64,000 bases of DNA from Crambe crambe (Eukaryota; Porifera; Demospongiae; Poecilosclerida; Crambeidae): contig OZ004584.1 in the NCBI GenBank assembly GCA_963924555.1, forward strand, positions 2,107,001 to 2,171,000. The letters are read 5' to 3'. Below, one piece after another: positions 19,090 through 60,219 of the stretch (position 1 is the stretch's first letter; each line of letters begins with the position of its first letter). Below the pieces are notes generated by a model. That model saw only the letters and a list, made by a program, of their open reading frames with translations. It was not told where the DNA came from and searched no databases. The position numbers and the translations under genes are program-made.

Positions 19090-21204
19090 GTCACCACCAA
19101 GACAAGCCACTGTTTCTTCCAATCATGTCGACAGTGTTCTTCAGCACGAAAATAGTGAGGGAGTGTGGAATGAGCTGACTCAATGCAAAGCTGACTATAA
19201 AGAGCTCAGAAAGCATTTGTAAGATGTGGGGAGGGGCATCCCTAAATGTAGCCCCTAACTGTATTATAGTTTCTATAGGGAAATTTTTTTTAAATGTGAG
19301 GACAACTACAAAATGAAAGAATTGAAGATATAGTACATGTCCCTAGCTACATCTAGCTATATAGTCACAGCATGTGGTTAATCAAGCACTGCTACTACCA
19401 CTCTGCATTATACATAATAGCTTCCCTTTATCATAATTATAGTGCAAATTTCAATAGGGTAAATCTTCATAGCTTTGCAAAAAAAAATATTCAACTGTGA
19501 ATATGAAGAAGCACATCGTAGCTCAAGATGCACTCGCAACTGGAACATAGCTAGTTATATTGGAGGTTTTGCACCATCTATTTGGGACTTTCTTTTGGAT
19601 TGTACTGTAATTTCACCACAACATGCACAAAAATTTCATCCCACCATAATATTATGTTTATCAGAATTCATTCAGAAGAGGAGAGGGACACCATAAAGGC
19701 ACAGTTCCTTCACAGCCAGACATTGCTTGCCAAATTCAGATCAGCAGCAAAACAGAAAGATGGTAAAGATGGTAAAGGGTATATTTTCATGTAGCTAATT
19801 ATTATAATTACACTACAATCTTTATCAGATATTGAAGGGAAACTCTCAGCTATTGTTGCTGTAGAAACCATTAGTAAGGAGAAAAATGAGTCTGTGAGTA
19901 TAACACAAATTGTTAAGTATATGAATAAATTGCTAATATGATGAATTGCAGATGAATGAAATGCAGTGCATTATTGAGGAATTGAAGAAGGAAAACAAGC
20001 TTATTAAACACCAAAGCATGTGAGTGCTATTACTAGCTAGCTAACTGGGCATGTTCTATGTTAGTACACTTTGACCTCTCTATTGTGTAAGTAATAGTTA
20101 GAACAGAGTGGTGTATGGGATATATTCGTCCAAGCCCGAGGGCGGAGCGGGTGAATATGTCCCATACAACACGAGGGGGTGTGTTCTAACTGACTTGTAG
20201 CCAAATCCCGCCCCCTGTCTCTTTCCACCTGTTGCTAAGAAGCTAGTAGTTGCTTAGTTAAGTAACAGTGATGTCATCATGCTGCATTGGAAACCGTTGC
20301 TAAGAAGATTTAACATAGACAGCTAGCTTTGATCTTCAATGCAGCAAGGAAGACAGAAAAAGAATTTGATGGTATTCTTAGCGCTGTTACTGATTTTAAA
20401 TCTTAATTACATTCCTGAGGTTTCCGGTTGAAACCCAACAAGACTTAAGAAATAATGGATAGTATAAAAAGGATTACTCGAGTGCTACTATGGTTGTAAG
20501 TGCACAGCTAAATAGCGCTAAGAACCGAGGCGGGTTTAATTTTAAGCAAGCTTTCAATCGGTTCTACTTCCTGGGGAATATATAATATTCCTTTGGCCAC
20601 TTCCTGGGAAATATATATATTCACCAGGTCTTCTTGATATATTGTATGTGCCGACGCTTTTGATCTGCCCACGCATTGGGCTACAAGTCACTTAGTTAGT
20701 TTGACCAGTCCGAGGAATAATTAGATTATTATCTGAATTCATGTTTCAGGATAGTCTGGCGTCGCCAGCCCAGCTTTTCTTCTTCTTTTTTTTTTGGGAT
20801 GGGTAAGAAAAGTGGTCTGGGAGCTCTAGCATCAACTACTTGTGACGCCCGCGCGCTTTCTCAAAAATAATTTAAATTGCAATATACATGCGTGTTGAAT
20901 AATTTTCCGAAGCCAGTCGGTAGAATTGCGAACACATCGCCCTTGAAAATCGCTGATACAACTTCCAGCCGTTCAGGCTTCAGGCCAGGTATTCCTAGCT
21001 CTTTAAATACAGCTCTTGGTTACTTCTCCATAGCTCTAGCTCTGCCAACCTGGAATAAATCGTGGGTGTGTCTCGCCAACATTAAAACTACTTCACGTGA
21101 CTGAATAGAGCAATCTGATAGGGACGCAGCTATAGCTGCGCACGCGGGCGACACAAGTAGTTGATGCTAGAGCTACCAGACCCATTTTTCTTCCCCGTCC
21201 CCCC

Positions 21205-21235
<31 letters not shown>

Positions 21236-23391
21236 AAAAGAAGAAAAGCTGGGCTGGCGACGCCAGACTAGTTTCAGGAGCCATGCACTGGAATGCAAGA
21301 CTCTTCGTGAAAAATTGGAACTTTTAGGAGCCTCACAGTTACAGAAACCATCGAAGAAAAAGAAATACACTGATATTTCCACCATGACAGAACTGAAACA
21401 TACACAACAAATTCCTGCAAACATCAATGAATGTCAAGCATGTGTCAGTAATGACTGAATCAAGAGCAGATGATACTGTTTTAGTAGACTCAGCTGTGCA
21501 AGTCAGTGGGTGGATTGAGTGTGGCAGTAATGCAAACATTAAAGATGGCACACTTGACTCCAATGGTCAAACTGCAATCCATAAATCCACTTTATGCCAC
21601 ACTCGTAGAAGAGTTCGTTCTGAAGGCAATCAGTAATTGGGCTTTCCTACAACTCGCACTAAAATTGAAGGGAATATAAAAGATGACCTCTCCTTTGGTC
21701 CCACTCCACAACTAAGATACACGCAGGAAGCACTTCTGTGAAATCAAATAAGGTTTCTTCTTCTTCTTCTTCAAAGGAGACATTGTGAAAAGCGGAAGAG
21801 TACGGCTAGTCACAAGTGTTTGTGGCAGCAACAAGTGAAGCCTCTTCAACAACGGGTATACACTGTGTCAGTTCATCATGACTAAGTATGTTTGTTGAGT
21901 CAGTAGACATGTACAGTTAGCTATGGCAAGCTCAGTCAGTTTACTCTAAAGCTGTCATTAAACTTGGCATCCTGTTCCATTCCAATTTTCAGTCTCAGTC
22001 CCATACTCAAGCATGCAGCTGGTAAAGCAAAGTGCAGAGTGACATAATTATAAGTGAATTATTATTGGGAGGATGAGTAACTAGCTATCCTCATACCCAG
22101 GCACACTTTTTTGTGTGGCCAGGGTATTATAGCTGGATGTTATATGTGAAGTGGCATAGAAAAAGGGACCTATAGCTAAATTTTCGCGAAAAATACAGCA
22201 AAAAATAGCTTCCAGCCACACTGTATGGCTACAGCTACATACACCATACATTGGATTCATATGGCAAAAATTTATGGCAATTAACTTATATAGTGACCTT
22301 AAAGTATACATGCATGGAGTCAGTGGGAGTTTAATATCGATTGTTCTCTTTCTCATAGTCACAGCAGATTTTCTTGTTTCTACAAAATATTATAACTTCA
22401 TTTCAGTGAAGGCCTTTCACTTGCTATCTTATGCATTCATAATTCAGGTTGCTGTATTGAGCACAGCCAAGCAATTGCTCACTCACCGTCTTGATGAACA
22501 AAGTTCAGGCATATGCAAGGCCGAGACTGAACATCAGGACATTGCAAAGAATCACCATGCTGCCAAATTAATGATTGAGGTTAAAAAAGACAGGTCATCA
22601 TGTGGCCTCACCACGGTGTTGTGTCCCTGAGTTTTAGGTTGTAGCTATACTATGAGTTAGTAGTTATGGTGAAAACTATGATGTTCTAATCAAACAGATT
22701 TCTCACTATGCAAGTCCTATAAGTTTCCAATGGACTACATATCTAGAATGTTTAGGGTACAAATCCAATCAATGCAGCTGCTAATATAGAGACATATGAA
22801 TATGGTTTATTATCTCTCAGCCATTTAGTACACAGTTATATTCATAGGGACTTAAGAAAGAAAAAGTGAAGAGTGTAGAAGAGATAAAGGAGCTGCAGGC
22901 TTCAGTGACAGTCTTGGAAGAAAAAAACTAAACACAGATCTGAGGCTGAGTGGAAGAAGCTGGAGAGCCAACAAAAGGTATACGAGCCTCTGATACTTCT
23001 CTTCATAAAAAGTGCCAGCATCGAGAACTATTGTACTGTACATCATAAACTGTGTTCTGTCAATTTGATGTTGAAATACGTACTCCCCTCCCATGCATAT
23101 ATACACTTTCTCCTCCTACAGGAGCTCCAAGACAAGTGCACCTCGCAGAATTCCACAATTAGGTCGCTGGAGAAAACTCTGCAGATGAAGACTTCAGAAC
23201 TGTCTGATATGATGGAAAGGTTGTAACAGACTATAGGAGTGTAGGAATTAATGCAATTTCAAACATTATCATTGTACTTCAGATGCTCTAAATTAGAAAG
23301 AGATGTGAGACAAAAGCGCATGCTCATCGAAGACTACCGGCGAAAGAAATCTGAGGTTAAAACCGTGCTTTCCTGTGAAGATGCTAAAATG
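19090..23391 (+). CDS. Multi-exon coiled-coil protein gene, decaying
   Basis: Exons with matching phases: 19090-19218 (ends at GTAAGA), 19665-19762, 19829-19893, 19952-20019, 21277-21855, about 22448-22580, 22848-22977, 23122-23219 and 23283-23391. Joining them gives charged, heptad-like sequence (CKADYKELRKHL, ISKEKNES, ECKTLREKLELLG, EIKELQASVTVLEE, DVRQKRMLIEDYRRKKSEV), so a long coiled coil is likely; a centrosomal or cytoskeletal role is only a guess. The junctions fit exactly, for example AT plus G at 20019/21277 and AG plus A at 23219/23283. However, exon 21277-21855 needs several frame changes, and exon 22848-22977 has one extra A in an A-run near 22925. Either the gene is a recent pseudogene or the assembly has errors. 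A RecQ-bearing element (20752-21270) sits exactly at one acceptor. Confidence 0.6.
20188..20701. mobile_element. Possible foldback element with TGACTTGTAGCC ends
   Basis: TGACTTGTAGCCAAATCC near 20190 and the complement of GGGCTACAAGTCACTTAGTT near 20688 are inverted copies, about 500 bp apart, inside an intron of the coiled-coil gene. The interior is non-coding with duplicated TTCCTGGG(G/A)AATATATA blocks. Confidence 0.4.
20752..21270 (-). mobile_element. RecQ-remnant transposon, copy 1, with 9-bp TSD
   Basis: The termini TAGTCTGGCGTCGCCAGCCC and its complement are perfect inverted repeats. The 9-bp duplication GTTTCAGGA is at 20743-20751 and 21271-21279. Inside each end is a GTAAGAAAAGT...GGTCTGG-type block that aligns with copies 2 and 3. 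The minus-strand interior encodes a RecQ-like helicase piece. A long C-run (about 21198-21225) and A-run lie near the right end. The insertion is in a splice acceptor of the coiled-coil gene. Confidence 0.85.
20893..21017 (-). pseudogene. RecQ-like helicase N-terminal fragment (copy 1)
   Basis: The minus strand reads ELGIPGLKPERLEVVSAIFK followed by GDVFAILPTGFGK. This is the RecQ arrangement: an aromatic/LKPEQ-like motif (motif 0) about 20 residues before Walker A. The lysine of GxGK is present but the following Ser/Thr is Leu. Only about 40 codons survive, so it has no activity. Confidence 0.75.
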
Positions 23392-23411
23392 GTATGTTGC
23401 ATCTGTAGCTA

Positions 23412-24090: not shown

Positions 24091-24151
<61 letters not shown>

Positions 24152-25255: not shown

Positions 25256-25259
25256 TTAA

Positions 25260-26274: not shown

Positions 26275-26521
26275 TTAAGAATGCAACAACCAGTTCTATG
26301 ACCTGGTGGTTGTGTTCTGAATTGAGATGTTTGATTTAAGAGTAGCTCAGTGGCAGATCCAGGGGGGCTTGAAGGTTTCTATTGAAACCCCTTTTGGGCC
26401 GCTATTCCAGTAGCGCAGCGTGCTGTGCCTACTGAGTATGCTCAGATGTATTTCATCCTCTTTATCATCTATTATCTCTATCTAGCTATATCTATTAAAA
26501 TTTAGCTGCCTAAGTCTTACT

Positions 26522-27070
26522 TAGTCTGGTGGCACGGCGACCCCTGGTAAAAAAATAGGGGTCTGGTGACATCGCTATACCGAACCAGTTTTTACCCCAC
26601 GATTCTGGGGGGGGGGGGGGGGGGGGGAGTTGTGGTATCGTGAATATCATTAGCGTGACCAAAGAATTCAATTAGCCAAAGAGCGACGACTTCCGCATGG
26701 CTGCAATTGGGCGCCATAGATCTTCCATGCATGAGCCCGAGACTGAATCTTTGAAGGTTGAGTCAGCTAAGCGCCTAGTCTGGCGGGTCGCCTGAAAGAT
26801 CTACAGTTGCAGGTTTCAGAGATGTTTTCGGGATCTTGCCTACGGGGTATGGGAAAAGCCTTTGCTATGGACATTCGACAAGATCTGCAGCTCTGAATCC
26901 CCTGAGCCATCTATAGTTTGTGCTGTGACTGTAGAACAAGTTATGTGCATCGCGCAGGCGGCTGACCGTGGTTTTTTCCGTGACCGCGATGACATCCTGA
27001 TCACATTGGTCCGGTATAGTGGTGTCACCAGACCCCTATTTTTTACCAGGGGTCGTCGCCCGCCAGACTA
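26522..27070 (+). mobile_element. RecQ-remnant transposon, copy 2, with 9-bp TSD
   Basis: It begins TAGTCTGGTGG and ends CCGCCAGACTA, with exact 9-bp flanks AGTCTTACT (26513-26521 and 27071-27079). Both ends carry the subterminal block CCCCTGGTAAAAAA...AGGGGTCTGGTG. A G-run is at about 26608-26627. The plus strand encodes a RecQ-like Walker A region. Confidence 0.85.
26797..26901 (+). pseudogene. RecQ-like helicase fragment (copy 2)
   Basis: The plus strand reads RDVFGILPTGYGKSLCYG, a full Walker A motif (TGYGKS) in RecQ context (DVF...LPTGYGKSLCY). A stop follows within about 20 codons. The upstream motif 0 is lost. Confidence 0.75.
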
Positions 27071-27216
27071 AGTCTTACTGCGTGACAAGCAGTCGAGTCA
27101 GCTTAGCGCCTCGAGCTCAGAAGTGGGTGTGGTCACGTGAAATGGGCGTGGCCCATCAAAAATTCGCGCGCGCTGACGCGCGCACCTCCCTTTCCCATAT
27201 CCTGAATCCGCCACTG

Positions 27217-32584: not shown

Positions 32585-34673
32585 ACTTTGGAACTGTTTC
32601 CTTACAATTCCAGTGCTCTGCAGCTATTTGTACAAAAAAATGTGTTCAGTGTCAACCATATTCACTCTTTCATAAGTGTTTCTTTCTGAGCATTTCCAGA
32701 AATCAGGTTCGGAGGCCGCTCTGCTGGTAGATGCCAGCAATGCATTCAATTCCATCAATAGGATGACGGCCCTTCACAATGTGAGACATCTCTGTCCTTC
32801 CTTCTCCACGATTTTGATTAACACCTACAGAGACAACAGTGAACTGTACATTGATGGTGAGGTGCTCTACTCACAAGAGGGTACCACACAAGGTAATCCA
32901 CTAGCAATGCCATTCTACGCAATCGCCACAGTACCTTTGATATCCAAGCTTTCAGATTCAGTTGATCAAACATGGTATGCCGACGATGGAGCGGCTACAG
33001 GGAAGTTATCTTGCCTTCGATCCTGGTGGGATGATATTGAGAAGCATGGCCCATCGTTTGGTTACTATGCAAATGCCTCCAAGACATGGCTGGTGACCAA
33101 GTCTGACTATTTTAATGAAGCTAAGTCAGTTTTTGGAGATACCAAGATTAAGATCACCTGCGATGGCCGGCCTTACCTCGGGACAGCCCTTGGCAGCCAC
33201 AGTTACACCAGTGAGTTTGTCAAGGGCAAGGTGAACCTATGGATAAAAGAACTGAAAGTCCTCTCCAACATCACCGCTTCCCAGCCCCATGCTGCCTATG
33301 CTGCATACTCCCATGGCATGATGAGCAAGTGGTCATACATCTCCCGAACTATCCCCAATATCAGCAATCATCTACGGAGCCTAGAAGACACCATCCGCTT
33401 TGACTTTATACCATCCATCACGGGACGCCCACCACCAAATGACTCAGTTCGGAACCTGCTGGGATTACCAGCAAGGCTTGGGGGCATGGGAATTATAGAT
33501 CCTTCACTTCGCTCAGATGATGAATTTAAAGCCTCCTCCAAGGTCACTGCTCCACTGGTACATCTAATGGAGCAGAGGTGTGGTGAACTAACCTACCAAG
33601 TCTCTGCTGACCAGATAACAGCCAAAAGTGACATCCAGCATGAGAGAAGTGAGAATCTGACCCAAGCTGCTTCTTCCTTACAAGAAGAAGTACCCCCTGC
33701 TCTATCCAAGGCCATGGACCTTGCAAGCCAACCAGGGGCCTCGAGCTGGTTGACTTCATTGCCAATCAAGGAGCACGGCTTCTGTCTCCACAAGGGAGCC
33801 TTTTTTGACGCTTTGGCTCTACGGTATGGCTGGGCACCTAGCAAGACCCCCACACACTGTGCCTGTGGTGCGACATTCACTGTGGACCACTTACTCTCCT
33901 GCTCTCGTGGAGGTTTTCCCTCCCTACGACATAATGAAGTCAGAGACCTAACAGCAAGACTTCTCACTGAAGTGTGCAATGATGTGCAAATAGAGCCAGA
34001 GCTTCAGGAGATTACCACGGAGGTCTTACCTGAGCGAAGTGCAAATACCAACAATGGTGCAAGGCTGGATATCGCTGCCAGTGGTCTATGGGGAGGCAGG
34101 CGCGAGAGGTCAATGGTGGATGTCAGGGTTTTCAACCCCTTTGCTCCTTCAAACAGCAGCTCCACCCTTGACAACTGCTACACCAAACATGAGCGTGAGA
34201 AAATACGTGCTTATGGACGTCGGGTAAGAGAAGTTGAACATGCTACTTTCGTCCCTCTAGTGATGTCTGCAACTGGTGGTCTCGCCAAACAAGCGACCAA
34301 TTTCTACAAGCGACTGGCATCCCTCCTCGCAGACAAGTGGATGCAACCCTACAGCACCACTTTGTACTGGCTGCGCTGTTCACTATCCTTTAGCCTACTC
34401 CGTTCAGCCATCCAGTGCATACGAGGTGCACGATCTTCAAGAGGTCATGCTGTGAAACTTTCACCAGTTGATCTGGTGACTGCAGAGGCCCTTCGACCCG
34501 ATCCATTCCATCATCCAGTGCATGCACACAGTGAGGACTGAACTTTTCTGTTTTTTTTTGCTTATTCCTCTTGCTTTAATAATCAATATTTTTATTCCTA
34601 TTCCCCTCTTTCCTCTTTCTCTCCCTCATTTCAAAATTAAAATTACTAATTCAAAAAAAAAAAAAAAAAAAAA
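32585..34673 (+). mobile_element. 5'-truncated non-LTR retroelement with poly-A tail
   Basis: Contains the RT-bearing frame below and ends in a run of about 22 A (34652-34673). GTATTAC precedes 32585 and directly follows the A-run, a plausible 7-bp target duplication. The first 107 bp (32585-32691) are not element-like. They match 34920-35026, the start of a neighbouring transcription unit, with one mismatch. Confidence 0.7.
32692..34541 (+). CDS. Reverse transcriptase with C-terminal nuclease-like domain, 5' truncated
   Basis: Open for about 616 codons. RT landmarks: LLVDASNAFNSINR (first catalytic Asp), EGTTQGNPLAMPFYAIA, and the YADDG box at about residue 110. The RT thumb-like part follows (ASKTWLVTK, GRPYLGTALGS). 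C-terminal is a zinc motif CACGATFTVDHLLSC, then GARLDIAASG...MVDVRVFNP, the pattern of restriction-like endonuclease non-LTR elements (R2/R4/NeSL type). No in-frame ATG lies at the truncated 5' end; the first fingers-domain motifs and any N-terminal zinc fingers are missing. The frame is intact, so the insertion is young. Mobility in its present form is unlikely. Confidence 0.85.
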
Positions 34674-40263: not shown

Positions 40264-43200
40264 TTAATAGGAGTCCAATCTATAACTTGATGACAACTGT
40301 CCATCTTCTTCTTCATTGAATTTTTGTCTATTTGTCATAAGCAGAGAAACATCAAGTTCAGTCTCTTCAGTAGCTACTTGATGACGAACTTTATAGCACT
40401 CCTTCAATCTTGCCACAATGGTTGCAATAATAAGAACAACCATGTACAATAATGGTAGATATGCTATCGTTATCTGAACCTTTTCCACTGTACTACTGTT
40501 TGAACTTTCTGACAAGCTTAACACTTGAATATAGTTATAAAGAGTGAGGCTGTTGATTATTGATAATGTGGCAAAGATGAAAGTGTCTAGGCGATTGTGC
40601 CACTGGTTTCTGTAAGGCTGAAACCAAGCATGTGCAGTTAGCATCAGCAGGAATTGAATCTCTACTAACGTGTAGAAATTAGATAGGCTGTGAAAGAAAG
40701 CAAAAGTCACTAGTGTTGACAGTCTGTACATGAAGTACAGGCCAGAGAAGTAGCGGTATTCGTCTTTGAAGCTGCTCTGGAAGGAATCAAAGAAGGGTTT
40801 GAATTTTTCCAATGGTACGATTTTACAGAGAAATTTGCTAATTGAAGATTCTTGAATACGAAATAGAGAAAATACCCTGTAGCATAGTGGATAGGTCAAA
40901 AACACTATGGGTGGAAGGAGGACAAGTGTTAGTAGAAACACTAGAGCTGGAATCACATAAATGAGGTGACGTCCTGTCAAGAACTCCAATCTACCATCAT
41001 AAAAGACAACAGTTTGATTGAATTTAGGTCCTTTGGAGTATAAGTTCACTGGTGTCAATATCAAAAGTGTTGTTTTCGTACATTGTGAGTAGCATATTAC
41101 TAAGAACCCTGACAGACCATGTATGATGGAGTCACTGATTTTGTATCTGGTCCTGCGCATCTTTCTGAAACATTTCTGAAAAATGTTGGATTTACAGTAA
41201 TGGAGAATAGTAACTGTTAGAAAGACGAGTGTTAGGGAATAAGCTATCGTCACGTACTTGAATGTAAGTATATCCAGTGATGATGCAGTTGACCAAAGGC
41301 AGAAGGATAAACGATGGAGTTTGAAGGAATTCAAATTGAATATGTTGAAAATGAACTTCAAGTAGCGTATTGCATAAAACACTGCATATTCGTGCCATAT
41401 CTGACCATTTGCGCTAATGTGCAGCGTGTCAAAGATTTGTGCATACAGTATGAAGCCTTGGACTGTACCACTTGTGAGCTTTATGTCGAACATTATAATC
41501 AGAACGAAAAGAATAGTGACTGGAAATATCTCAGAGATGATGAAGAACAGCCATCCCAAATTGCAATGCTTGTTCGGGTTACAGTCGAAATTTTCTGAGT
41601 GGAAGAATGCTGAATGGTTTTCCATACACTCTGCACACAAAATTCCAGTCCGTCCTGTTCTACAAACTAAATCATCAATTTCAAGGATCAACGAAGTGTT
41701 AGGAAGATGAAATTCCAGTTGGGTTGACGTATTGCAGTATCTCCTCGGACACAAGGCTGACACTAGATCATTTTCCTTGCCATATTTGACTGATGAGTTC
41801 TCTCTCTTATAACCCATCCAGTAGCCTCTCTTCAGCTTTCCCTGGAGAGTTGTTTGATTGCAATACGATATTCCTTTGTACCTGTTCTCTTCTGTATATC
41901 CAGAACACACACATGTTCCTTTTCTATCCTGTAATGTTTCATCAAAGACATACCCAGGAGGACACTCCTGCATTATGAATGGTATTAATGTTTCATTACT
42001 TCCTACACTGGATAAGGACAGGCTTAAATTTCCTTCATCTCCAGGCCTTCCATACAGCTGGATCTTGTTATTATAATTGTTCACATATGCAGGATCTATG
42101 GCCACATTGGAATGCTTTGTGGTGAGTCTAACTCGATACACTCTCACAACTTCATCATCGTAGTAGTTCACAACTGCAATGGGAAGTTCAGTTATATTTC
42201 CTGGAGTGATAGCCATGGGTTCGATCAGATCCTTTTTGACTTTAAAGTCTAAGTCCTCTGCTCCAACTTTTTCACTCGCATTGTCCTTGAAAATGAAAGA
42301 AATGGGTTTTTGTCTTGAACTTTCTTTTGTTCGATTCCCATTCCCAAAGTTTATGATGTGTTCACATGATTTGATCGAGTATATAAACAATGAGTCCACA
42401 TGTGGGTCGGGCTCATTCTCATGTGTGTTAGGGTCATTCCCATGTGTGTTTGACTTATTCCCATCGGGTTCACATTCAGAGTCAACACAAATTTTTTTTC
42501 CAAATGTAAAAGTGATATTTGCATCTCCTTGATGAGGATTCGGATAATAAATGAAGCAGTTTTGCAGATATATATTCTTCAAGCCTTCAACCTGTTGTTG
42601 GTATAATGCACCACCTTCAACAGTTGCTGTATTCCCCTCAAAAGAGAGATCGACATTCTCCTCAAGTTGGAATTTTGAAGATCCAAAGAGACCTATTGCT
42701 CCACCATAATATCCAGTATTGCTATTGAATATCATTTTGGTTCCAGTTCTCATTGTGGCGATACTGGATACCAGATACAGAGCAGTCCCCGAGTTTGCCA
42801 TGAAACTCATATTTGATTTGAAAGTGATTTCGAATCCAACAGAGAAAAGTGACCCCTTTCCTCGTCTATATTTCCTATACTTGGGTTGATTTTTGAAAAT
42901 TTTGGTGAAACTAACAATTTCATTCTTTTCAAAGGTGCAATTGTCCAGTGTTATTCTGGGTAGTTTCCCTTTGCTGTTAAACGTCGAGAAGATGTGAGGC
43001 AATAGATACAATGCTGAGCCATATCTTCCTCTATTATTTTTCCAACTGCAATCTGTAAACTCAACTTCATTGCTGTCAATCAATTTTGAAGCTTCTGCTT
43101 GACTGGAATAAATTAGCATTCCTCCACCGAATGAGGCACTGTTGCCATTGAAGGAACAATTCATAAATTTTATCTTGTTGAATCTTGGCAAAATTTCATT

Positions 43201-44154
43201 AGAATGAAGCAAGTATCCGATATCAGCGCCCCCACCACCTTTCCACCTGCAAGAATTGTACTCAAAGGTGCAATGTTTGACTGAAATTGTGTTACTTTGA
43301 GATGAGTTACTGATTGCAATGTTCAATCCACCACCCCAGTATCCTGCATTGTTATGTTCAAAGACACAATTCTCTATTATTAAGGAAATATTACTTGTGT
43401 TGCCTTTCATATGTATATTTAATCCACCCCCATTCCCTAAGCTTATAAAAGTATCATTTTCAGCATAAGCAGAATTATTCCTGAACGTGCCATGTTTGAT
43501 AGTTATTGATGAATTCGCACATGATTCTCTCTCTGAATCGCAATTCAACTCGATATATACACCGCCTCCACCATTTTGTTCATGTGATTCATTAATGTGA
43601 CCATATTCAAATGTGCAATCGATGATGTCCGTTGAAGCAGAAGATTCGAGAATAGCCAGTCCCAAACCTTTACTATTGATCACTGAAGTATTGTATATTG
43701 AAATAACAATACTGTTCTTGATAACTATTCCACTGCTAAATTCGATCAACTGATTCTTTTGATCAGAGAAGTAGTGGATACAGGTACCTCCACATCCATA
43801 AGCTTTTATGTTGAGGATAGAAACAGAGCTCACGTTCTCAAATTCAAGCCCAGCAGGTTCATTGCCACATTCAATGATGCTGTTGTCTTCTCCAATGATG
43901 AAAACAGCTTGCTTATCGGAAAATTTCAACTGGTATTCCAGTTTATGATTTCTTGATAGAAGATGAAGCGTTAGCCTTTGAATGCTTGTATCATTTGCTA
44001 GTATGGACAAGTTCTTTGATGACTTTCCTAATGAGAGATCAGTTGACAACGTATAAAATTCTGTGGAATTTATTTCCACATCTTCTAATAAAGCAGGAGA
44101 AACTGCAATGCATAGAATGAAGGTAGTGTACAGACACAAGTTTGAGTTGCACAT
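40264..44154 (-). CDS. Beta-helix ectodomain, multi-TM membrane protein
   Basis: Complete, 1296 residues, no intron. Signal peptide about 1-21 (LCLYTTFILCIAVSPALL). Residues about 60-640 form repeated strand-turn units with GGG/GGA turns (GNGGGLNIHM, YWGGGLNIAI, FGGGMLIYSS, YGGAIGLFGSS, EGGALYQQ), typical of a right-handed parallel beta-helix, rich in N-X-S/T. CPPGY is at about 729, followed by a Cys-rich module (CVCSGYTEENRYKG, GYWMGYKREN, CPRRYC, CAECMENH). From about 865 there are some nine hydrophobic segments (LGWLFFIISEIFPVTILFVL onward), with PLEKFKPFFDSFQSSFKDEY between the fifth and sixth. The cytoplasmic tail is short and acidic. Predicted plasma-membrane receptor- or channel-like protein; ligand and output are unknown. 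Nearest relative is the gene at 47047. Confidence 0.9.
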   Translation of the reverse strand: MCNSNLCLYTTFILCIAVSPALLEDVEINSTEFYTLSTDLSLGKSSKNLSILANDTSIQRLTLHLLSRNHKLEYQLKFSDKQAVFIIGEDNSIIECGNEPAGLEFENVSSVSILNIKAYGCGGTCIHYFSDQKNQLIEFSSGIVIKNSIVISIYNTSVINSKGLGLAILESSASTDIIDCTFEYGHINESHEQNGGGGVYIELNCDSERESCANSSITIKHGTFRNNSAYAENDTFISLGNGGGLNIHMKGNTSNISLIIENCVFEHNNAGYWGGGLNIAISNSSQSNTISVKHCTFEYNSCRWKGGGGADIGYLLHSNEILPRFNKIKFMNCSFNGNSASFGGGMLIYSSQAEASKLIDSNEVEFTDCSWKNNRGRYGSALYLLPHIFSTFNSKGKLPRITLDNCTFEKNEIVSFTKIFKNQPKYRKYRRGKGSLFSVGFEITFKSNMSFMANSGTALYLVSSIATMRTGTKMIFNSNTGYYGGAIGLFGSSKFQLEENVDLSFEGNTATVEGGALYQQQVEGLKNIYLQNCFIYYPNPHQGDANITFTFGKKICVDSECEPDGNKSNTHGNDPNTHENEPDPHVDSLFIYSIKSCEHIINFGNGNRTKESSRQKPISFIFKDNASEKVGAEDLDFKVKKDLIEPMAITPGNITELPIAVVNYYDDEVVRVYRVRLTTKHSNVAIDPAYVNNYNNKIQLYGRPGDEGNLSLSLSSVGSNETLIPFIMQECPPGYVFDETLQDRKGTCVCSGYTEENRYKGISYCNQTTLQGKLKRGYWMGYKRENSSVKYGKENDLVSALCPRRYCNTSTQLEFHLPNTSLILEIDDLVCRTGRTGILCAECMENHSAFFHSENFDCNPNKHCNLGWLFFIISEIFPVTILFVLIIMFDIKLTSGTVQGFILYAQIFDTLHISANGQIWHEYAVFYAIRYLKFIFNIFNLNSFKLHRLSFCLWSTASSLDILTFKYVTIAYSLTLVFLTVTILHYCKSNIFQKCFRKMRRTRYKISDSIIHGLSGFLVICYSQCTKTTLLILTPVNLYSKGPKFNQTVVFYDGRLEFLTGRHLIYVIPALVFLLTLVLLPPIVFLTYPLCYRVFSLFRIQESSISKFLCKIVPLEKFKPFFDSFQSSFKDEYRYFSGLYFMYRLSTLVTFAFFHSLSNFYTLVEIQFLLMLTAHAWFQPYRNQWHNRLDTFIFATLSIINSLTLYNYIQVLSLSESSNSSTVEKVQITIAYLPLLYMVVLIIATIVARLKECYKVRHQVATEETELDVSLLMTNRQKFNEEEDGQLSSSYRLDSY

Positions 44155-44237
44155 TTTCCCTCTCCTATGACTGTCTTGTTACATACGTAGCAGTTAAGAT
44201 GAGCATTAGCTGTGGCTGTAATTAAGCTCTGTGTTTC

Positions 44238-47046: not shown

Positions 47047-50000
47047 TTAATAGGAGTCCAATTTATAACTCGATGACAACTGTCCATCAATGACATTTTC
47101 TTCTTCGTTGAATTTTTGTCTATTTGTCATAAGCAGAGAAACATCAAGTTCGATCTCTTCAGTAGCTACTTGATGACGAACTTTATAGCACTCCTTCAAT
47201 CTTGCCACAATGGTTGCAATAATAAGAACAACCATGTACAATAATGGTAGATATGCTATTGTTATCTGAACCTTTTGCACTGTATTACCGTTTGAACTCT
47301 CTGACAAGCTGAACACTTGATTATAGTTATAAAGAGTAAGGCTATTGACTATCGATAATGTGGCAAAGATGAAAGTGTCTAGGCGATTGTGCCACTGGTT
47401 TCTGTAAGGCTGAAACCAAGCATGTGCAGTTAGCATCAGCAGGAATTGAATCTCTACTAATGTGTAGAAATTAGATAGGCTGTGAAAGAAAGCAAAAGTC
47501 ACTAGTGTTGACAGTCTGTACATGAAGTACAGGCCAGAGAAGTAGCGGTATTCGTCTTTGAAGCTGCTCTGGAAGGAATCAAAGAAGGGTTTGAATTTTT
47601 CCAATGGTACGATTTTACAGAGAAATTTGCTAATTGAAGATTCTTGAATACGAAATAGAGAAAATACCCTGTAGCATAGTGGATAGGTCAAAAACACTAT
47701 GGGTGGAAGGAGGACTAGTGTTAGTAGAAACACTAGAGCTGGAATCACATAAATGAGGTGACGTCCTGTCAAGAACTCCAATCTACCATCATAAAAGACA
47801 ACAGTTTGATTGAATTTAGGTCCTTTGGAGTACAAGTTCACTGGTGTCAATATCAAAAGTGTTGTTTTCGTACATTGTGAGTAGCATATTACTAAGAACC
47901 CTGACAGACCATGTATGATGGAGTCACTGATTTTGTGTCTGGTCCTGCGCATCTTTCTGAAACACTTCTGAAAAATGTTGGATTTGCAGTAATGGAGAAT
48001 AGTAACTGTTAGAAAGACCAGTGTTAGGGAATAAGCTATCGTCACGTACTTGAATGTAAGTATATCCAGTGATGATGCAGTTGACCAAAGGCAGAAGGAT
48101 AAACGATGGAGTTTGAAGGAATTCAAATTGAACATGTTGAAAATGAACTTCAAGTAGCGTATTGCATAAAACACTGCATATTCGTGCCATATCTGACCAT
48201 TTGCGCTAATGTGCAGCGTGTCAAAGATTTGTGCATATAGTATGAAGCCTTGGACTGTACCACTTGTGAGCTTTATGTCGAACACTATTATCAGAACAAA
48301 AAGAATAGTGACCGGAAATATCTCAGAAATGATGAAGAACAGCCACCCCAAATTGCAATGCTTATTCGGGTTACAGTCAAGATTTTCTGAGTGGAAGAAT
48401 GCTGAATGGTTTTCTACACACTCTGCACACAAAATTCCAGTTCGTCCTGATGTACAAACTAATTGATCAATTTCAAGGATCAATGAAGTGTTAGGAAGAT
48501 GAAGTTCCAGTTCGGTTGACGTATTGCAGTATCTCCTCGGACACAAGGCTGACACTAGATCGTTTTCCTTGCCATATTTGACTGATGAGTTCTCTCTCTT
48601 ATAACCCATCCAGTAGCCTCTCTTCAGCTTTCCCTGGAGAGTTGTTTGATTGCAATACGATATTCCTTTGTACCTGTTCTCTTCTGTATATCCAGAACAC
48701 AAACATGTTCCTTTCCTATTCTGCATCGTTTCATCATAGACATACCCAGGAGGACACTCCTGCATTATGAATGGTATCAATATTTCATTACTTCCTACAC
48801 TGGATAAAGACAGGCTTAAATTTCCTTTATCTCCAGGTCTTCCATACAGCTGTGTCTTGTTGTTATAATTGTTCACATATGCAGGATCAATGGCCACATT
48901 GGAATGCTTTATGGTGAGTCTAACTCGATATACTCTCACTACTTCTTGATCATAGTAGTTCACAACTGCAATGGGAAGTTCAGTTATATTTCCTGGAGTG
49001 ATAGCCATGGGTTCAACCAGATTCCTTTTGACTTTAAACTCTAAGTCCTCTGCTCTAACTTTTAAACTTGCATTATTTTTGAAAATGAAAGAAATGGGTT
49101 TTCGTCTTGAACTTTCTTTTATTCGACTCGCATTCCCAAAGTTTATGATGCGTTCGCATGATTTGATTGAGTATATAAACAAGGAGTCCACATGTGGGTC
49201 AGGCTCGTTGGGATCATTCCCATGTGTGTTTGACTTATTCCCATCGGGTTCACATTCGGAGTCAACACAAATGTTTTTTCCAAATGTAAAAGTGATATTC
49301 GCATCTCCTTGATGAGGATTCGGATAATAAATGAAGCAGTTTCGCAGCGATATATACTCCAAGCCTTCAACCTGTTGTTGGTATAATGCACCACCTTTAA
49401 AAGTTGCTGTGTTTCCCACAAAAGAAAGGTCAACATTCTCCTCAAGTTGGAGTTTCGACGACCCAAAGAGACCTATTGCTCCACCATAAAATCCAGTATT
49501 GCTATTGAATATCATCATTGTTCCAGTTTTCATTGTGGCGATACTGGATACAAGATACAGAGCAGTCCCTGAGTTTTCCACGAATCTCATATTTGATTTG
49601 AAAGTGATTTTGAATCCCACGGAGAAAAGTGACCCCTTTCCTCGTCTATATTCCCTATACTCATGTTGATTTTTGATAATTTTGGTGGAGTTAGTGATTT
49701 CATTCTTTTCAAAGGTGCAATTGTCCAGTGTTATTCTGGGTAACTTCCCTTTGCTATTAAATGTTGAGAAGACATGAGGCAATAGATACAATGCTGCAGC
49801 ATATCTTCCTGTATTACTCTTCCAGCTGCAATTTTTAAACTCAATTTCGTTGCTGTCAATCAATTTCGAAGGTTCTGCTTGACTGGAATAAATGAGCACT
49901 CCTCCGCCAAATGTGGCACTGTTACCATTGAAGGAACAATTCATGAATTTTATCTTGTTGAATCTTGGCAAGATTTCATTAGAATGAAGCAAGTATCCGA

Positions 50001-50946
50001 TATCAGCACCCCCACCACCTTTCCACCTGCAAGAATTGTACTCAAAGGTGCAATGTTTGACTGAAATTGTGTTACTCTCAGATGAGTTACTGATTGCAAT
50101 GTTCAATCCACCACCCCAATATCCTGCTTTGTTATATTCAAACATGCAATCCTCTATTGTTAAGGAAGTGTTACTTGAATTGCCTTTCATGTGTACATTT
50201 AATCCACCTCCATTCCCCAAACTTAAAACTGTATTGGCTCTGTCATCTTTGGCATGAGCAGAATTATTTCTGAACTTGCTGTGTATGATAGTTATTGACG
50301 AATTCGCACATGAATCTCTCTCCAAATCGCAATTCAACTCGATATATAAACCACCTCCACCATTTTGTAATGATTCATTAATAATATGACCATATTCGAA
50401 TGTGCAATCGATAATGTCCATCAAAGCAGAAGATTCAAGAATAACCAGTCCCAAACCTTTACTATCCGTCACTGAAGTATTATATATTGAAATAGCAGTG
50501 CTGTTCTTAATTACAATACCACTTCTGAACTCAATGGACTGATTCTTTTGATTTGAGAAATCGTTTATACCTCCACATCCGTATACCGTTATATTGAGGA
50601 CAGAAACAGAGCTTACATTTTCAAATTCTAGCCCAGCAGGTTCATTGCCACATTCAATAATGCTGTCATCTTCTCCGATGATGTGAACAGCTTGCTTGTT
50701 GGAAAATTTCAACTGATATTCCAGTTTGTGGTTTCTTGATAGAAGATGTAGTGTTAGCCTTGGAATGTTTGTATCACTTGCTAGTATGGACAAGTTCTTT
50801 ATCAATGAAGATGACTCTCCAAATGAGAGATCAGTTGACAAAGTATAAACTTCTGTGGAATTCATTTCCACATCTTCTGATAAAGCAGGAGAAACTGCAA
50901 TGCATAGAATGAACATAGTATATAGACACAAGTTTGAGTTGCACAT
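47047..50946 (-). CDS. Beta-helix ectodomain, multi-TM membrane protein
   Basis: Complete, 1299 residues from the ATG at 50946. The frame is open 14 codons further, to 50988, but the 50946 ATG aligns with the paralogue and is followed by the signal peptide (LCLYTMFILCIAVSPALS). Same layout as the 44154 gene: beta-helix with GGG turns (QNGGGGLYIEL, GNGGGLNVHM, FGGGVLIYSS, KGGALYQQ), CPPGY at about 730, GYWMGYKREN, and nine membrane segments from about 865 with PLEKFKPFFD. The membrane half is almost identical to that of the neighbour, while the ectodomain differs much more, including at silent positions. The ectodomain has a shorter N-H-G-N-D-type repeat (about residue 600). Function unknown; receptor- or channel-like. 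Confidence 0.9.
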   Translation of the reverse strand: MCNSNLCLYTMFILCIAVSPALSEDVEMNSTEVYTLSTDLSFGESSSLIKNLSILASDTNIPRLTLHLLSRNHKLEYQLKFSNKQAVHIIGEDDSIIECGNEPAGLEFENVSSVSVLNITVYGCGGINDFSNQKNQSIEFRSGIVIKNSTAISIYNTSVTDSKGLGLVILESSALMDIIDCTFEYGHIINESLQNGGGGLYIELNCDLERDSCANSSITIIHSKFRNNSAHAKDDRANTVLSLGNGGGLNVHMKGNSSNTSLTIEDCMFEYNKAGYWGGGLNIAISNSSESNTISVKHCTFEYNSCRWKGGGGADIGYLLHSNEILPRFNKIKFMNCSFNGNSATFGGGVLIYSSQAEPSKLIDSNEIEFKNCSWKSNTGRYAAALYLLPHVFSTFNSKGKLPRITLDNCTFEKNEITNSTKIIKNQHEYREYRRGKGSLFSVGFKITFKSNMRFVENSGTALYLVSSIATMKTGTMMIFNSNTGFYGGAIGLFGSSKLQLEENVDLSFVGNTATFKGGALYQQQVEGLEYISLRNCFIYYPNPHQGDANITFTFGKNICVDSECEPDGNKSNTHGNDPNEPDPHVDSLFIYSIKSCERIINFGNASRIKESSRRKPISFIFKNNASLKVRAEDLEFKVKRNLVEPMAITPGNITELPIAVVNYYDQEVVRVYRVRLTIKHSNVAIDPAYVNNYNNKTQLYGRPGDKGNLSLSLSSVGSNEILIPFIMQECPPGYVYDETMQNRKGTCLCSGYTEENRYKGISYCNQTTLQGKLKRGYWMGYKRENSSVKYGKENDLVSALCPRRYCNTSTELELHLPNTSLILEIDQLVCTSGRTGILCAECVENHSAFFHSENLDCNPNKHCNLGWLFFIISEIFPVTILFVLIIVFDIKLTSGTVQGFILYAQIFDTLHISANGQIWHEYAVFYAIRYLKFIFNMFNLNSFKLHRLSFCLWSTASSLDILTFKYVTIAYSLTLVFLTVTILHYCKSNIFQKCFRKMRRTRHKISDSIIHGLSGFLVICYSQCTKTTLLILTPVNLYSKGPKFNQTVVFYDGRLEFLTGRHLIYVIPALVFLLTLVLLPPIVFLTYPLCYRVFSLFRIQESSISKFLCKIVPLEKFKPFFDSFQSSFKDEYRYFSGLYFMYRLSTLVTFAFFHSLSNFYTLVEIQFLLMLTAHAWFQPYRNQWHNRLDTFIFATLSIVNSLTLYNYNQVFSLSESSNGNTVQKVQITIAYLPLLYMVVLIIATIVARLKECYKVRHQVATEEIELDVSLLMTNRQKFNEEENVIDGQLSSSYKLDSY

Positions 50947-51040
50947 TTTCCCCTCTCCTATGACTGTCTTCCTACAAAATATACTCAAGATGAGCGTTTA
51001 ACTGTGGGTGTAGCTAACTGTGAAGCTCCGTACGCATATC

Positions 51041-53940: not shown

Positions 53941-56900
53941 TTAGTCATTCAGCATTTCAGCTATTCTTTCTTCAGCAGCTTCAAGTAATATTGAATTAGA
54001 TGCATTATACTCAACATAATCTGAAGACCTTCTCTGATAAGACAAGTACTTATTTCTAAGTTTGTATGCTATCATTTTGCAGTAGTATATCACAATGCAA
54101 ACTAATGGTATGTAGAGCAGAGCTATCCCTATTGAACTGAAAACTGTTGCATACTTTCCACTTTTAAAAACTCTGAATGAAATGTGGTAACTAGCCATGA
54201 CATTCACAATGAGGAGAATCATAAACAGAAGGCCATCTGAGATATTATGCTGCTTGTTTTTATATGGTTGAAATATTGCATGTACTGCAAATATTAAGGC
54301 AAGTCCAATACGCATGCTCAGATAGAAGTAAGCAGTATCATACACTAGCATGAAAGGTGCTACTAATATGATTCTGTAGACAAAGTATAGTCCCGAAAAA
54401 AATCGATATTCATCTTTGAAACTCCGTTGAAAAAAATCAAAAAACGGCTTCAACTTTTCTAGTGGTACAATTTTGCATAAATAGTTCAAAAAATTTGTTT
54501 CATTAATCTTGAAGAGGTCTAAGATTCTGTAACATGCTGGATAGGAAATGAGCAACATTGGAGGAATGATTCCCAGTGTCAGGATGATCAGTAGTGCAGG
54601 CAGAGCATACGCTAAGTGGAGACCTTGGAAATATTCCAGCTCTCCATCATAGAAAGATACTGTTTTATAGATTTCACCTTCCTTTTTATAAAGTGGTGCT
54701 GCTGTCAGCAATCGGATTGATATCTTGATACATTTGGAGTAACTTAAGATAAGAAAACTTGATATACCTCGAATTATCGTCCCTTTGATACTGATATGAT
54801 GTTTCCCATGTGATTTACATGTAGCTGAAGTACACCTCATTCGTCTTCCATAGCAAAAATTTATGATGCATATGACAGCAATCACAAGCAATAGTGAGTA
54901 CAATGCTGTAACATACTTGAATGCAATGATGTCAAGAACTTTTGCTTCTTTCCAGATACAAAATGAAGTACGCTCAAATTCAAAAAAATCTAAATTAAAA
55001 ATTTGTGCAATGGATTTATAAATAGCAATAAATATTTTCAATACTGGAGAATGAACCACAAATTCAGCCTCTTTGAGGGTGTTATCTGATATCTGTAGAT
55101 AAAGTATCAGACCATTCACTGCACCTTTCGTGAGTTCGATGTCAAATATGATCACGATTAAGAATAAAATAGTGACAGGGACTATTTCAGATGATATGTA
55201 GTAAAGCCATCCCAAAGAGCAGCTGTTGTCTTCCTTGCAAGTAAATCGATAGCTGTTGAAGTGGACAATATTGTTTCCCCGACAATGACTGCAAAGCTTG
55301 CCTGTTCGAGTCTTACCACAAATCAAACAATCCAGGGCAGTATTATCTGTATTATTCTGTAGTTCATGTGTTCGTATCTCATTCAATTCATCGTTGAAGC
55401 AGTGAGTGAGTGGGCATAATGCATACACTAAGTCATCTTCTTTCCCAAATGTTTCGTTCTTCCCAATATTGCTATAACCCATCCAGTATCCATGTTTAAT
55501 AGTAGCAGTAAAAGTAGTATCATTGCAGGATTGGATGCATGCATAGTGATTTTCTTTTTCTTTTACTGAACACACACACGTCTTGTTTTCTCTAAGTACA
55601 TATCCTGGAGGACACTCTTGTAAAGTAACAGTGATTTCAGTGGCAACCGTCCAAACTTCAGAATATGTCAGTCTTAGTGTTGCATTGATTCCTGGCTGAC
55701 CTAATATTTTGATCCAGTTATGTGATGTGAACGTGTATGCTTCATCAATTACAATGTTAGATTTATCATGTGAAGTCACAGAGGCACTAAATTGAGCAGG
55801 AATCTCTCTTCTTAATTCATCCAATAATTTCACAGGTATTTGGGTTCTGCATCCAGGTATGACATATAATTCATCCTTTCCCTTAGAGATTTCATGCCCT
55901 GAAGTGGAAATGACTTCACCACTGAAATCGGCAATGCAGTTTAGAGTGTTATTTTCTGAGCAATTGTTGTGACATGGTTGTAAAGTAGAGGTGTATATAG
56001 GTACATTCTTCTCATTATCAACATTGTCAAATACAAATTCGATTCTTCTATCACTAACATTTAGGTCCCCCCTATATTGAAGAAAACATTTTCCTGGAGA
56101 ATAATAGTGTTCAAAAGTATTTACTTGATTATAAATGGCTCCACCTTTTTCAGTGGCTGTGTTGTTAGAGAAAAAAAAGGTGGAATTATCTTCAATGAAT
56201 AAGACTGAGGAATCAGATAGGTGTATTGCCCCTCCCTTTGTTCCTCTATTTCTAGTGAATATCACATCAGACCCACTCTGAAAGTGGACAGTGGCAGATA
56301 TTAAGTAGATGGCTGTATTGTTATTATCAGTGAAGGTGTGTTTTCCATAGAATGTAATATTTAGTTTGTTTATCCATACAGCACCAGCATTATACCTTCT
56401 CAAAGTTTTACGATGTATTGCAGTAATATTATTTGAAGTGTAGGAACAGTTTATCATTTCCACTGTAGGTAAAATATGACAAATGTTGCTTCCCTTTGGA
56501 AAAAGGTCGATAGCTGCCCCACTTGATGCTGAGTTGCCTATCCAGTTTGAAGTGTTGAAAATGATGATGCTATTATAAATAGTTTGACAGGATGTGTGCT
56601 TAAACTCAATTCTTACTCCACCACCATAATATGCACTATTTTCCAAGAAATTTGATCCACTTAAATTAAATGAACTGTTTTCCAGATATTGATTGTAATC
56701 ATATATGATATTAATACCACCTCCTCTGCATGCTGAGTTATTTACAAATACACAATCCAAGATTTTCATATCATATGTATTGTCATCTCCAGCAAGAACT
56801 ATTTGCATACCTCCACCATTATAGCGTTTATCAATTCTTCTCTGGTTTTTATCACAGTCTTCTTCAGATTTTTCCCAGTTTCCATTATTCATGAAATTGC

Positions 56901-57384
56901 TTTGCTTGATTAAGATCATCCCTCCATTATGGAGCATTGCTAAACCAGTTCTTTCACTATTAGTGATATTAACATTAGTGATCGTTATGTTGGTGCAGTA
57001 TCTGACAAGAATACCGAAGCTAAGGACAAGTTGATCATCATATGCTCCACAGTAAGCGAATTCCATGTTGTGCATTTCCAAATTTGTGATATTATGCAAA
57101 TGCAATCCAACACCTGAATTATTCTTGCTGCATTTAATAATGCTTTCCATACCAGATATAACTAATGATGATTTGTTGGCAATCACAATGAGCTTTTGAA
57201 GTTCGATAGTGTTGATACAAATTGTCATATCTGCTGCACTGTTGCTATTAATTTCTGTGATATTTTCCATGTTGTACAGGATAGTGCAGTTAGCACAGAC
57301 ATTTTGAGCATCATAGATGCATGTAATATCATCAAAAGTAGAAACACGACCAATCACTAGCAAGAGAAAAACAATCAGCAACAT
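53941..57384 (-). CDS. Beta-helix ectodomain, multi-TM membrane protein (short form)
   Basis: Complete, 1147 residues, intronless. Signal peptide MLLIVFLLLVIGRVST. The ectodomain is about 130 residues shorter than in the 44154 group, with the same turns (YNGGGMQIVLAG, CRGGGINIIYDY, YYGGGVRIEF, KGGAIHLSD, KGGAIYNQ). CPPGY is at about 590, GYWMGYSN follows, CGKTRTGKLCSHCRG is a Cys-rich linker, and nine membrane segments start at about 723 (LGWLYYISSEIVPVTILFLI). The PLEKLKPFFDFFQRSFKDEY block is conserved. It forms a subgroup with the partial gene at 63451, which has about 80 percent identity over the visible N-terminus. Function unknown. Confidence 0.9.
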   Translation of the reverse strand: MLLIVFLLLVIGRVSTFDDITCIYDAQNVCANCTILYNMENITEINSNSAADMTICINTIELQKLIVIANKSSLVISGMESIIKCSKNNSGVGLHLHNITNLEMHNMEFAYCGAYDDQLVLSFGILVRYCTNITITNVNITNSERTGLAMLHNGGMILIKQSNFMNNGNWEKSEEDCDKNQRRIDKRYNGGGMQIVLAGDDNTYDMKILDCVFVNNSACRGGGINIIYDYNQYLENSSFNLSGSNFLENSAYYGGGVRIEFKHTSCQTIYNSIIIFNTSNWIGNSASSGAAIDLFPKGSNICHILPTVEMINCSYTSNNITAIHRKTLRRYNAGAVWINKLNITFYGKHTFTDNNNTAIYLISATVHFQSGSDVIFTRNRGTKGGAIHLSDSSVLFIEDNSTFFFSNNTATEKGGAIYNQVNTFEHYYSPGKCFLQYRGDLNVSDRRIEFVFDNVDNEKNVPIYTSTLQPCHNNCSENNTLNCIADFSGEVISTSGHEISKGKDELYVIPGCRTQIPVKLLDELRREIPAQFSASVTSHDKSNIVIDEAYTFTSHNWIKILGQPGINATLRLTYSEVWTVATEITVTLQECPPGYVLRENKTCVCSVKEKENHYACIQSCNDTTFTATIKHGYWMGYSNIGKNETFGKEDDLVYALCPLTHCFNDELNEIRTHELQNNTDNTALDCLICGKTRTGKLCSHCRGNNIVHFNSYRFTCKEDNSCSLGWLYYISSEIVPVTILFLIVIIFDIELTKGAVNGLILYLQISDNTLKEAEFVVHSPVLKIFIAIYKSIAQIFNLDFFEFERTSFCIWKEAKVLDIIAFKYVTALYSLLLVIAVICIINFCYGRRMRCTSATCKSHGKHHISIKGTIIRGISSFLILSYSKCIKISIRLLTAAPLYKKEGEIYKTVSFYDGELEYFQGLHLAYALPALLIILTLGIIPPMLLISYPACYRILDLFKINETNFLNYLCKIVPLEKLKPFFDFFQRSFKDEYRFFSGLYFVYRIILVAPFMLVYDTAYFYLSMRIGLALIFAVHAIFQPYKNKQHNISDGLLFMILLIVNVMASYHISFRVFKSGKYATVFSSIGIALLYIPLVCIVIYYCKMIAYKLRNKYLSYQRRSSDYVEYNASNSILLEAAEERIAEMLND

Positions 57385-57434
57385 CTTTAAAGTTGTAACT
57401 ATGTATCTGAAGGATTAGCTACCTTCTCTTTCTC

Positions 57435-57819: not shown

Positions 57820-58082
57820 ATAAAAAAGAGAAGTAGGGATGGGTATTATGTACGGTTCGAAAAAGTTCAGTAATAAGTGGGTCAAGTAACCTCTTACCCG
57901 TACCCATCACCAAACTCAAGAACTACACCAATATCACCAGCTACTTCACTCCTTGCTCTCTTAATTATCACACCCAATCACCCCTACTTCACTCCCCTGT
58001 TATTAGTTATGCATTTTGATTATCCGGCCTCTCATGGGGGGAGTGAAGTAGCTTAAGTTGGGCGATATGGTTGGTGATGAGT
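57820..58082. repeat. Partial copy of the ACAAGT foldback family interior
   Basis: AAGTAGGGATGGGTATTATG, TACCCATCACCAAACTCAAG and GGAGTGAAGTAGC match the inner arms of the foldbacks at 8716 and 36801, but the outer ACAAGT ends are missing. Confidence 0.6.
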
Positions 58083-59032: not shown

Positions 59033-59059
59033 CAGCTAACATGATAAAAATTCAATAGA

Positions 59060-59205
59060 ATTAGTTCTCATAAAATTAGCTTATGAAACAAACCACCAAC
59101 GTTTCGACCAGAATACTCTAGATAAGTCCTACCCTGATGAAGGCTAGAGTATTCTGGTCGAAACGTTGGTGGTTTGTTTCATAAGCTACTTTTATGAGAA
59201 CTAAT
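59060..59205. mobile_element. Near-perfect hairpin element, 62-bp arms
   Basis: The left arm 59060-59121 and right arm 59144-59205 are inverted copies with one mismatch, separated by a 22-base loop. Arm core: CCACCAACGTTTCGACCAGA. A shorter relative is at 8230-8300. Confidence 0.85.
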
Positions 59206-59217
59206 AATCTTCTTCTT

Positions 59218-59322
59218 CTTGACAGCCATAACTCCCGACTGCTTCATCCTATATCTACAATCTTGGTACCATATTATTGAAGCTCTACACCTGATCTAAG
59301 GAATGGTATTGTTCAAATTGAA
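59218..59322 (+). repeat. Host repeat copy 1, split by two insertions
   Basis: GCCATAACTCCCGACTGCTT, ATCTTGGTACCAT and GAAGCTCTACACCT match 61627-61790. The match resumes at 59995-60005 and again from 61598, the gaps being the two elements described next. Confidence 0.85.
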
Positions 59323-59985
59323 TAATCTCGCGCGCGCAGCCCCCTGTAAAAAATAGGGGTCTGGGCCAATGTGTATACCTTTCTCGTTCTCAAGGCGTGG
59401 TTTATTATGACGTATGACTATCATTAAAAAAGTGCGAGTATAAAATTAATTTTTTATTTGTAGCAGCATGGAAGAGATGTCTCTTCACAGTCAGAGGAGA
59501 AGAAACAGAGTTGCAGCTTAACATTGCAAGCAGTAGCCCAAACACTTCTCTCTTATAGAACCAGGGAGAATGCAGCTATGGCTGCATCTTGATCCTTACT
59601 ATTATTATAAATACAGTAGACTTCTTGTCCATGGACACTAGGAAGTAGCTAATATATGATTTTCCATAGCCAGTAGGGAGTGACACAAAGACATCATGGC
59701 CAGTTACAAATTTCTGTGAAGAGTCCTCTCTTGCTCTGGCTTCGTGGTGCAAATAACTCCGCTGTCCTGGCAATGATTGTTTATACTTGGACTCAGGCTC
59801 TGGAAACTATGCTAGAAGCTTAGCACTAGCTAGTAGCAAAAAATCTAGCTCGTAATTTTTACACCTTCTCTCACGTGCTCCATAAGCAATACAGCTCTAG
59901 TACGCTCCTCCAGGAGAGAACAAAAAAGGTATACGCATTAGACCAGACCCCTATTTTTTTACAGGGGGCTGTGCGTGCAAGACTA
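59323..59985 (-). mobile_element. RecQ-remnant transposon, copy 3, with 9-bp TSD
   Basis: It starts TAATCTCGCGCGCGCAGCCC and its right end, read in reverse, is TAGTCTTGCACGCACAGCCC. The 9-bp flanks CAAATTGAA are exact (59314-59322 and 59986-59994). Subterminal CCCCTGTAAAAAA...AGGGGTCTGG blocks match copy 2. The interior has a minus-strand RecQ piece. Confidence 0.85.
59576..59773 (-). pseudogene. RecQ-like helicase fragment (copy 3)
   Basis: The minus strand reads HDVFVSLPTGYGKSYISYFL, a complete Walker A in RecQ context. It then jumps to KKSTVFIIIVRIK, which resembles the later SxxIVVSPL region, so an internal deletion is likely. Confidence 0.75.
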
Positions 59986-60219
59986 CAAATTGAAGTAAAG
60001 CTCAAGGGTCTGACTAAAACACGGACCAGACCGGACCACCGGACCATGATAAACTTTTTCGCACGAAGTCAAAAATGCGCATGCGCGCTTGATTGCAATC
60101 CGGTGTAGTAGTGAAATAGGGCCCCCCTGGTTTTGGGGCCCCCATCCCCAAATCACTAGAGATTTAGGGCTGGGGGGCCCCATGCAACTAGGGTTATGGG
60201 GACCCCATAGTCCCCATAT

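Follow-up and report, generated by a model that had tools for sequence, protein, structure and literature searches.

Why should three short transposons within one stretch of a sponge genome each hold a fragment of a RecQ-family helicase? The question is raised by a 64,000-nucleotide stretch of Crambe crambe DNA (contig OZ004584.1, here C6, positions 2107001-2171000; hereafter the window), in which a first-pass annotation had described three copies of one transposon family with 9-bp target duplications and had guessed that their parent encodes the helicase itself. Searches of the 143 Mb genome (119 contigs) recovered long elements carrying a whole RecQ-family helicase gene, and the short elements of the window, which are non-autonomous, very probably arose by internal deletion from cut-and-paste DNA transposons of the AcademH kind. 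The features of the three copies are as follows.

20743..20751, 9-bp target duplication GTTTCAGGA on the left of copy 1, repeated exactly at 21271-21279
20752..21270, minus strand, copy 1, a probable 519-bp deletion derivative whose helicase-side end is its right end
20903..21019, minus strand, RecQ motif 0 / Walker A piece of copy 1, 39 amino acids (GLKPERLEVVSAIFKGDVFAILPTGFGK)
26513..26521, 9-bp target duplication AGTCTTACT on the left of copy 2, repeated exactly at 27071-27079
26522..27070, plus strand, copy 2, a probable 549-bp deletion derivative whose helicase-side end is its left end
26785..26895, plus strand, RecQ Walker A piece of copy 2, 37 amino acids (FRDVFGILPTGYGKSLCY)
59314..59322, 9-bp target duplication CAAATTGAA on the left of copy 3, repeated exactly at 59986-59994
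59323..59985, minus strand, copy 3, a probable 663-bp deletion derivative in which both ends of an element related to the 5.4-kb one described below are kept; its helicase-side end is its right end
59600..59734, minus strand, RecQ Walker A piece of copy 3, 45 amino acids (VFVSLPTGYGKSY)
59470..59556, plus strand, probable transposase-gene remnant in copy 3, matching the beginning of the gene (residues 8-38 at 45% identity, E 2.3e-4)

On re-reading, the annotated coordinates and 9-bp duplications all proved exact, and a RecQ Walker A piece was located in each of the three copies. The ends are inverted repeats in all three, although the supposedly common TAGTCT-type end is TAATCT at the left of copy 3. 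Likewise, the GTAAAAAAATAGGGGTCTGG-type subterminal block attributed to all three is present in copies 2 and 3, while in copy 1 it occurs only in looser form (AGTGGTCTGG / ATGGGTCTGG). Used as a pattern, this block gave 41 matches in the genome versus 0 for a reversed control.

Long elements with a RecQ helicase and a DUF6589 gene

The copy 3 Walker A piece, used as a protein query, led to the long copies: it returned 53 matches, including seven equal-scoring ones with long open frames. In the 1,000 bases read at one of these seven, an open RecQ frame follows a TAGTCT terminus, and a DNA search with that end recovered seven long elements.

C11:1667641-1673040, 5,400 bp, read whole, with CATATCTGA on both sides
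C11:3606826-3612184, inverted ends and a 9-bp duplication
C20:105614-110958, inverted ends and a 9-bp duplication
C19:45134-50023, inverted ends and a 9-bp duplication with one mismatch
C13:421763-429309, inverted ends and a 9-bp duplication
C16:2829849-2836979, inverted ends and a 9-bp duplication
C5:6045200-6057464, inverted ends and a 9-bp duplication

These copies have TAGTCT ends and span 4.9-12.3 kb, some of them holding insertions, and the duplication is present at all seven, exact at six. The ends of the 5,400-bp copy are inverted, nearly identical and ~70 bp long. When its 44-base terminus was used as a pattern with up to three mismatches, only its own copy was matched, as an inserted base sets the second end apart. 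Over the first 841 bp the seven copies share 94-100% identity (two of them match over a part), as expected under recent movement.

The helicase gene starts from one terminus and consists of two exons separated by a short GT-AG intron. Its product matches the RecQ family TIGR00614 at 250.1 bits against a cutoff of 219.8, and the Pfam families DEAD and Helicase_C are both recognized in it. The guess that the parent encodes a RecQ-like helicase is therefore borne out by a whole copy in which such a gene lies inside matching ends and a 9-bp duplication. Kinship was judged for this one helicase, read whole, by bit scores against solved RecQ structures, the best being 166 for bacterial RecQ, 156 for WRN, 151 for BLM, 146 for RECQ1, 135 for RECQ5 and 130 for RECQ4. 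Since the scores are similar across all of these types, the transposon helicase is not a recent copy of any of them.

A second gene converges on the helicase from the opposite end, and was modelled as six exons encoding 920 residues using predicted splice sites, with several candidates for intron 1. Residues 440-832 of the ~920-residue protein match DUF6589 with E 1.8e-43, and its cysteine-rich start matches zf-AD below cutoff only. This protein is presumed to be a DDE-type transposase, with D391/D394, D551 and E808, chosen by eye, as candidate catalytic residues. The long copy sought by the first-pass annotation, with a RecQ frame, a transposase and a 9-bp duplication, thus exists, with the DUF6589 protein as its presumed transposase. 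No paper containing the word DUF6589 was returned by a full-text literature search, and a pattern scan of viral contigs gave no relative of the DUF6589 exon.

Across the genome, there are 105 matches to the main DUF6589 exon and 85 to the exon of the helicase C-domain. Pairing was counted from clusters of DUF6589 matches, using 89 of the 105 rows; the 16 omitted are secondary pieces inside counted clusters. A helicase C-domain match lies within 3 kb of 37 of the 46 strong clusters (E<=1e-20), and all 37 pairs are convergent, none being on the same strand, with gaps of 10-728 bp. Random placement, in which the sizes of C15 and C35 were guesses, gave a mean of 0.06 pairs and a maximum of 2 in 500 trials. 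When clusters at E<=1e-3 are considered, 46 of 79 are paired, again always convergently, and the pairing is kept down to ~33% transposase identity (C15:3931518, C15:4155642; E 1e-48). The helicase is thus found neither in a minority of DUF6589 loci nor at unrelated positions, so the outcome that the first-pass annotation had named as contradicting its proposal did not occur.

Two regions on C16, 4305732-4317298 and 4429357-4440928, lie 123.6 kb apart and agree both in their set of degraded pieces of the two genes, helicase and DUF6589, and in the spacing of these pieces, pointing to a large duplication of an old element.

Families and parents of the short copies

The three window copies do not form the single family that had been annotated; each belongs to a multi-copy family of its own. 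For copy 1, the genome holds at least 39 further copies of nearly full length, at 87-95% identity, 40 of 294 candidates having been scored. The comparison of the copy-2 family covered 14 near-full or partial members besides copy 2, and of these 15 loci 14 differ by 2.0-5.4% from the majority sequence and one by 10.8%. Both ends were found at 11 of the 15, with the 9-bp duplication exact at seven of the 11 and carrying one mismatch at three. In the copy-3 family (12 loci examined, copy 3 included), six loci have both ends, five with an exact duplication and one with a single mismatch. As 9-bp duplications are this frequent in the families, versus 0 of 1,700 displaced flanks used as a control, the short copies are real transposon insertions. 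Reading the loci around scattered copy-2- and copy-3-family matches yielded no autonomous copy, and nothing resembling copy 3 was found in a phage collection.

Some arrangements of these families were recorded in passing. At C17:3798484-3799421 (loci L021 and L022), a nearly full copy-1-family element (C17:3798937-3799421) adjoins pieces of a copy-2-family element, apparently as a nested insertion. About five pieces of the copy-1 terminus, each ~35 bp, stand in tandem at C8:4606175-4606366 beside a full copy-1 element (C8:4606374-4606860). In addition, a nearly identical 104-residue helicase frame occurs at nine places on C1, C3, C9, C12 and C13 (e.g. C1:1034766, C13:2618863), and these places probably make up one more family of derivatives from a RecQ-carrying element.

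When searched against the long-element helicase, copies 3, 2 and 1 gave E values of 5e-11, 8e-6 and 0.006, respectively. Copy 3 is colinear with the long element at the latter's helicase end, matching positions 1-119 at 70% and 258-353 at 73%, and the other end of copy 3 retains the piece resembling the start of the DUF6589 gene that is listed above. On this evidence, copy 3 is taken to have arisen by deletion within a relative of the long element, both of whose ends it keeps. Copies 1 and 2 have no DNA match to the long element, and their translations gave nothing against the transposase (best E 8.6 and 3.2).

For copy 1, the match to the long-element helicase, weak alone, is rescued by a closer one at another locus carrying both genes. 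Its helicase piece shares 84% identity with an exon at C3:2501268-2501381, which belongs to a convergent RecQ and DUF6589 locus, and 82% with an exon at C19:4381092-4381205. The geometry of copy 1 predicted a terminus of the C3 locus near C3:2501632, and the right terminus of copy 1 was found at C3:2501616 with 37 of 37 bases matching. The 9 bp at this terminus, the one end of the C3 locus that was read, are AAGATATCG.

Class assignment and competing explanations

Excerpts of papers that cite Kojima (2020, Mob DNA 11:15) describe AcademH as a helicase-encoding Academ lineage of animals and fungi, whose helicases in fungi are also discussed (PMC10799480). Literature searches for Academ in sponges yielded nothing of use. 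Other excerpts report a RecQ helicase in Academ (PMC3627910) and duplications of 9 or 10 bp in AcademH but 3 or 4 bp in AcademX, a difference that is related to the helicase of the former and the nuclease of the latter (PMC10045372). The elements described here share with AcademH a RecQ-family helicase, 9-bp duplications and terminal inverted repeats, and differ from AcademX, of the same superfamily, in both duplication length and the possession of a helicase instead of a nuclease. The first-pass annotation had regarded a RecQ helicase with 9-bp duplications as outside the standard; because both features are already published for Academ and AcademH, this claim of novelty falls, and the elements are a good new example of a transposon type described in 2020 rather than a new kind. 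In the long elements, as seen in the copy read whole, the inverted ends measure ~70 bp, and near each terminus one of the two convergent genes begins. Under this assignment, the DUF6589 protein would bind the ends and make the 9-bp staggered cut, and the helicase may open or process the transposon ends or the gapped product, a role that is a guess. As both ends are kept in the short derivatives, these could have been mobilised in trans.

Target duplications of 9 bp are typical of Mutator elements, and the window copies had at first been framed as Mutator-like. Taken further, this framing would have MULE elements capture a host RecQ exon, and helicase pieces do sit in short elements here. The MULE domain (PF10551) is, however, absent from the Pfam matches of the putative transposase at E<=0.01, whether searched by exon or spliced. 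Moreover, the long-element helicase is a whole two-exon gene, paired with DUF6589 at most strong loci and always convergently, and it is about equally distant from the cellular types with solved structures rather than a copy of one, so that such a capture is scarcely credible. A different reading would keep the AcademH-like traits, RecQ and the 9-bp duplication, and assign the transposase to another or an unnamed superfamily. It draws on the want of a named Academ sequence in the DUF6589 comparison and on the absence of DUF6589 as a name from the literature found. Kolobok, for instance, has TTAA as its target duplication, whereas none of the duplications read here is TTAA, all being 9 bp and varied in sequence. 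This speaks against KolobokH, another DNA transposon that carries RecQ according to an excerpt of PMC9587614. As helicase type, duplication length and element length all agree with Academ or AcademH (curated bivalve Academ elements average 5,565 bp in an excerpt of PMC10294476), a transposase from outside Academ is unlikely.

The persistence of the helicase piece could also be given a functional explanation, in which the piece is kept to act for or against transposition, perhaps as a peptide or an RNA. Four derivative families do retain it, those of copies 1-3 and the nine-place family with 104-residue frames. In the long element, however, Walker A lies ~300 bp inside the helicase-side terminus, and the positions of the matching pieces, counted from that end, are 330-368 in copy 1 (294-332 in the long element), 273-347 in copy 2 (264-344) and 255-383 in copy 3 (261-410). 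The piece survives in unrelated derivatives because it lies ~300 bp from one terminus, in the part spared by internal deletion. Position alone explains its retention and no special role is required, and with the frames in the copies short or broken, retention for function is very unlikely.

Several observations weigh against derivation of the window copies from AcademH-kind elements. No helicase C-domain match lies within 3 kb of nine of the 46 strong DUF6589 clusters or of 33 of the 79 clusters at E<=1e-3, although a helicase exon-1 fragment is present within 2 kb of two of the nine (C16:4356390, C16:4494469). A parent of copy 2 was looked for in the genome and none was found; outside its own family, the copy 2 piece matches DUF6589-linked helicases over 18 residues only, at 83% identity (e.g. 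C3:7082928, C8:8978253). One of the 11 both-ended copy-2-family loci (L008) lacks a 9-bp duplication where its ends predict one, the duplication of the long copy on C19 has a mismatch, and the whole sequence was read for one long copy, that of 5,400 bp. Finally, Academ transposase is a putative name for the DUF6589 protein, based on the published combination of traits.

A further proposal, possible but doubtful, is that these loci represent an old two-gene system of a DUF6589 transposase and a separate, convergent RecQ, kept together down to ~33% transposase identity (e.g. C15:3931518, C5:5985153), in which the transposase could not do without the helicase, the latter would help to fix the 9-bp stagger, and DUF6589 would be the Academ-type catalytic domain. 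For the AcademH-kind elements themselves, what remains of interest is how clearly the two genes are arranged, how recent the long copies are, and the setting for DUF6589, a Pfam family of unknown function that hereby gains a concrete association with mobile elements. With seven near-identical long copies, related loci by the dozen and short derivatives in large families, the genome offers material for studying what a cut-and-paste element needs a RecQ helicase for, and whether duplication length depends on the helicase, as an excerpt of PMC10045372 suggests for Academ lineages.

Other features of the window

Apart from the transposon copies, the minus strand of the window holds large, near-repeated single-exon frames of 505-1316 amino acids.

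13741-17609, minus strand, large near-repeated frame
40264-44178, minus strand, large near-repeated frame
47047-50997, minus strand, large near-repeated frame
53941-57414, minus strand, large near-repeated frame
32676-34541, plus strand, 621-residue frame

The large frames contain many short repeats and have a C-terminal part that is cysteine-rich and membrane-like, and a Pfam scan of two of them (13741-15258 and 40264-44178) gave no match. Those at 40264-44178 and 47047-50997 form a 6.8-kb tandem duplication. The plus-strand frame has a weak match to RVT_1 (E 7.6e-5), below the curated cutoff.
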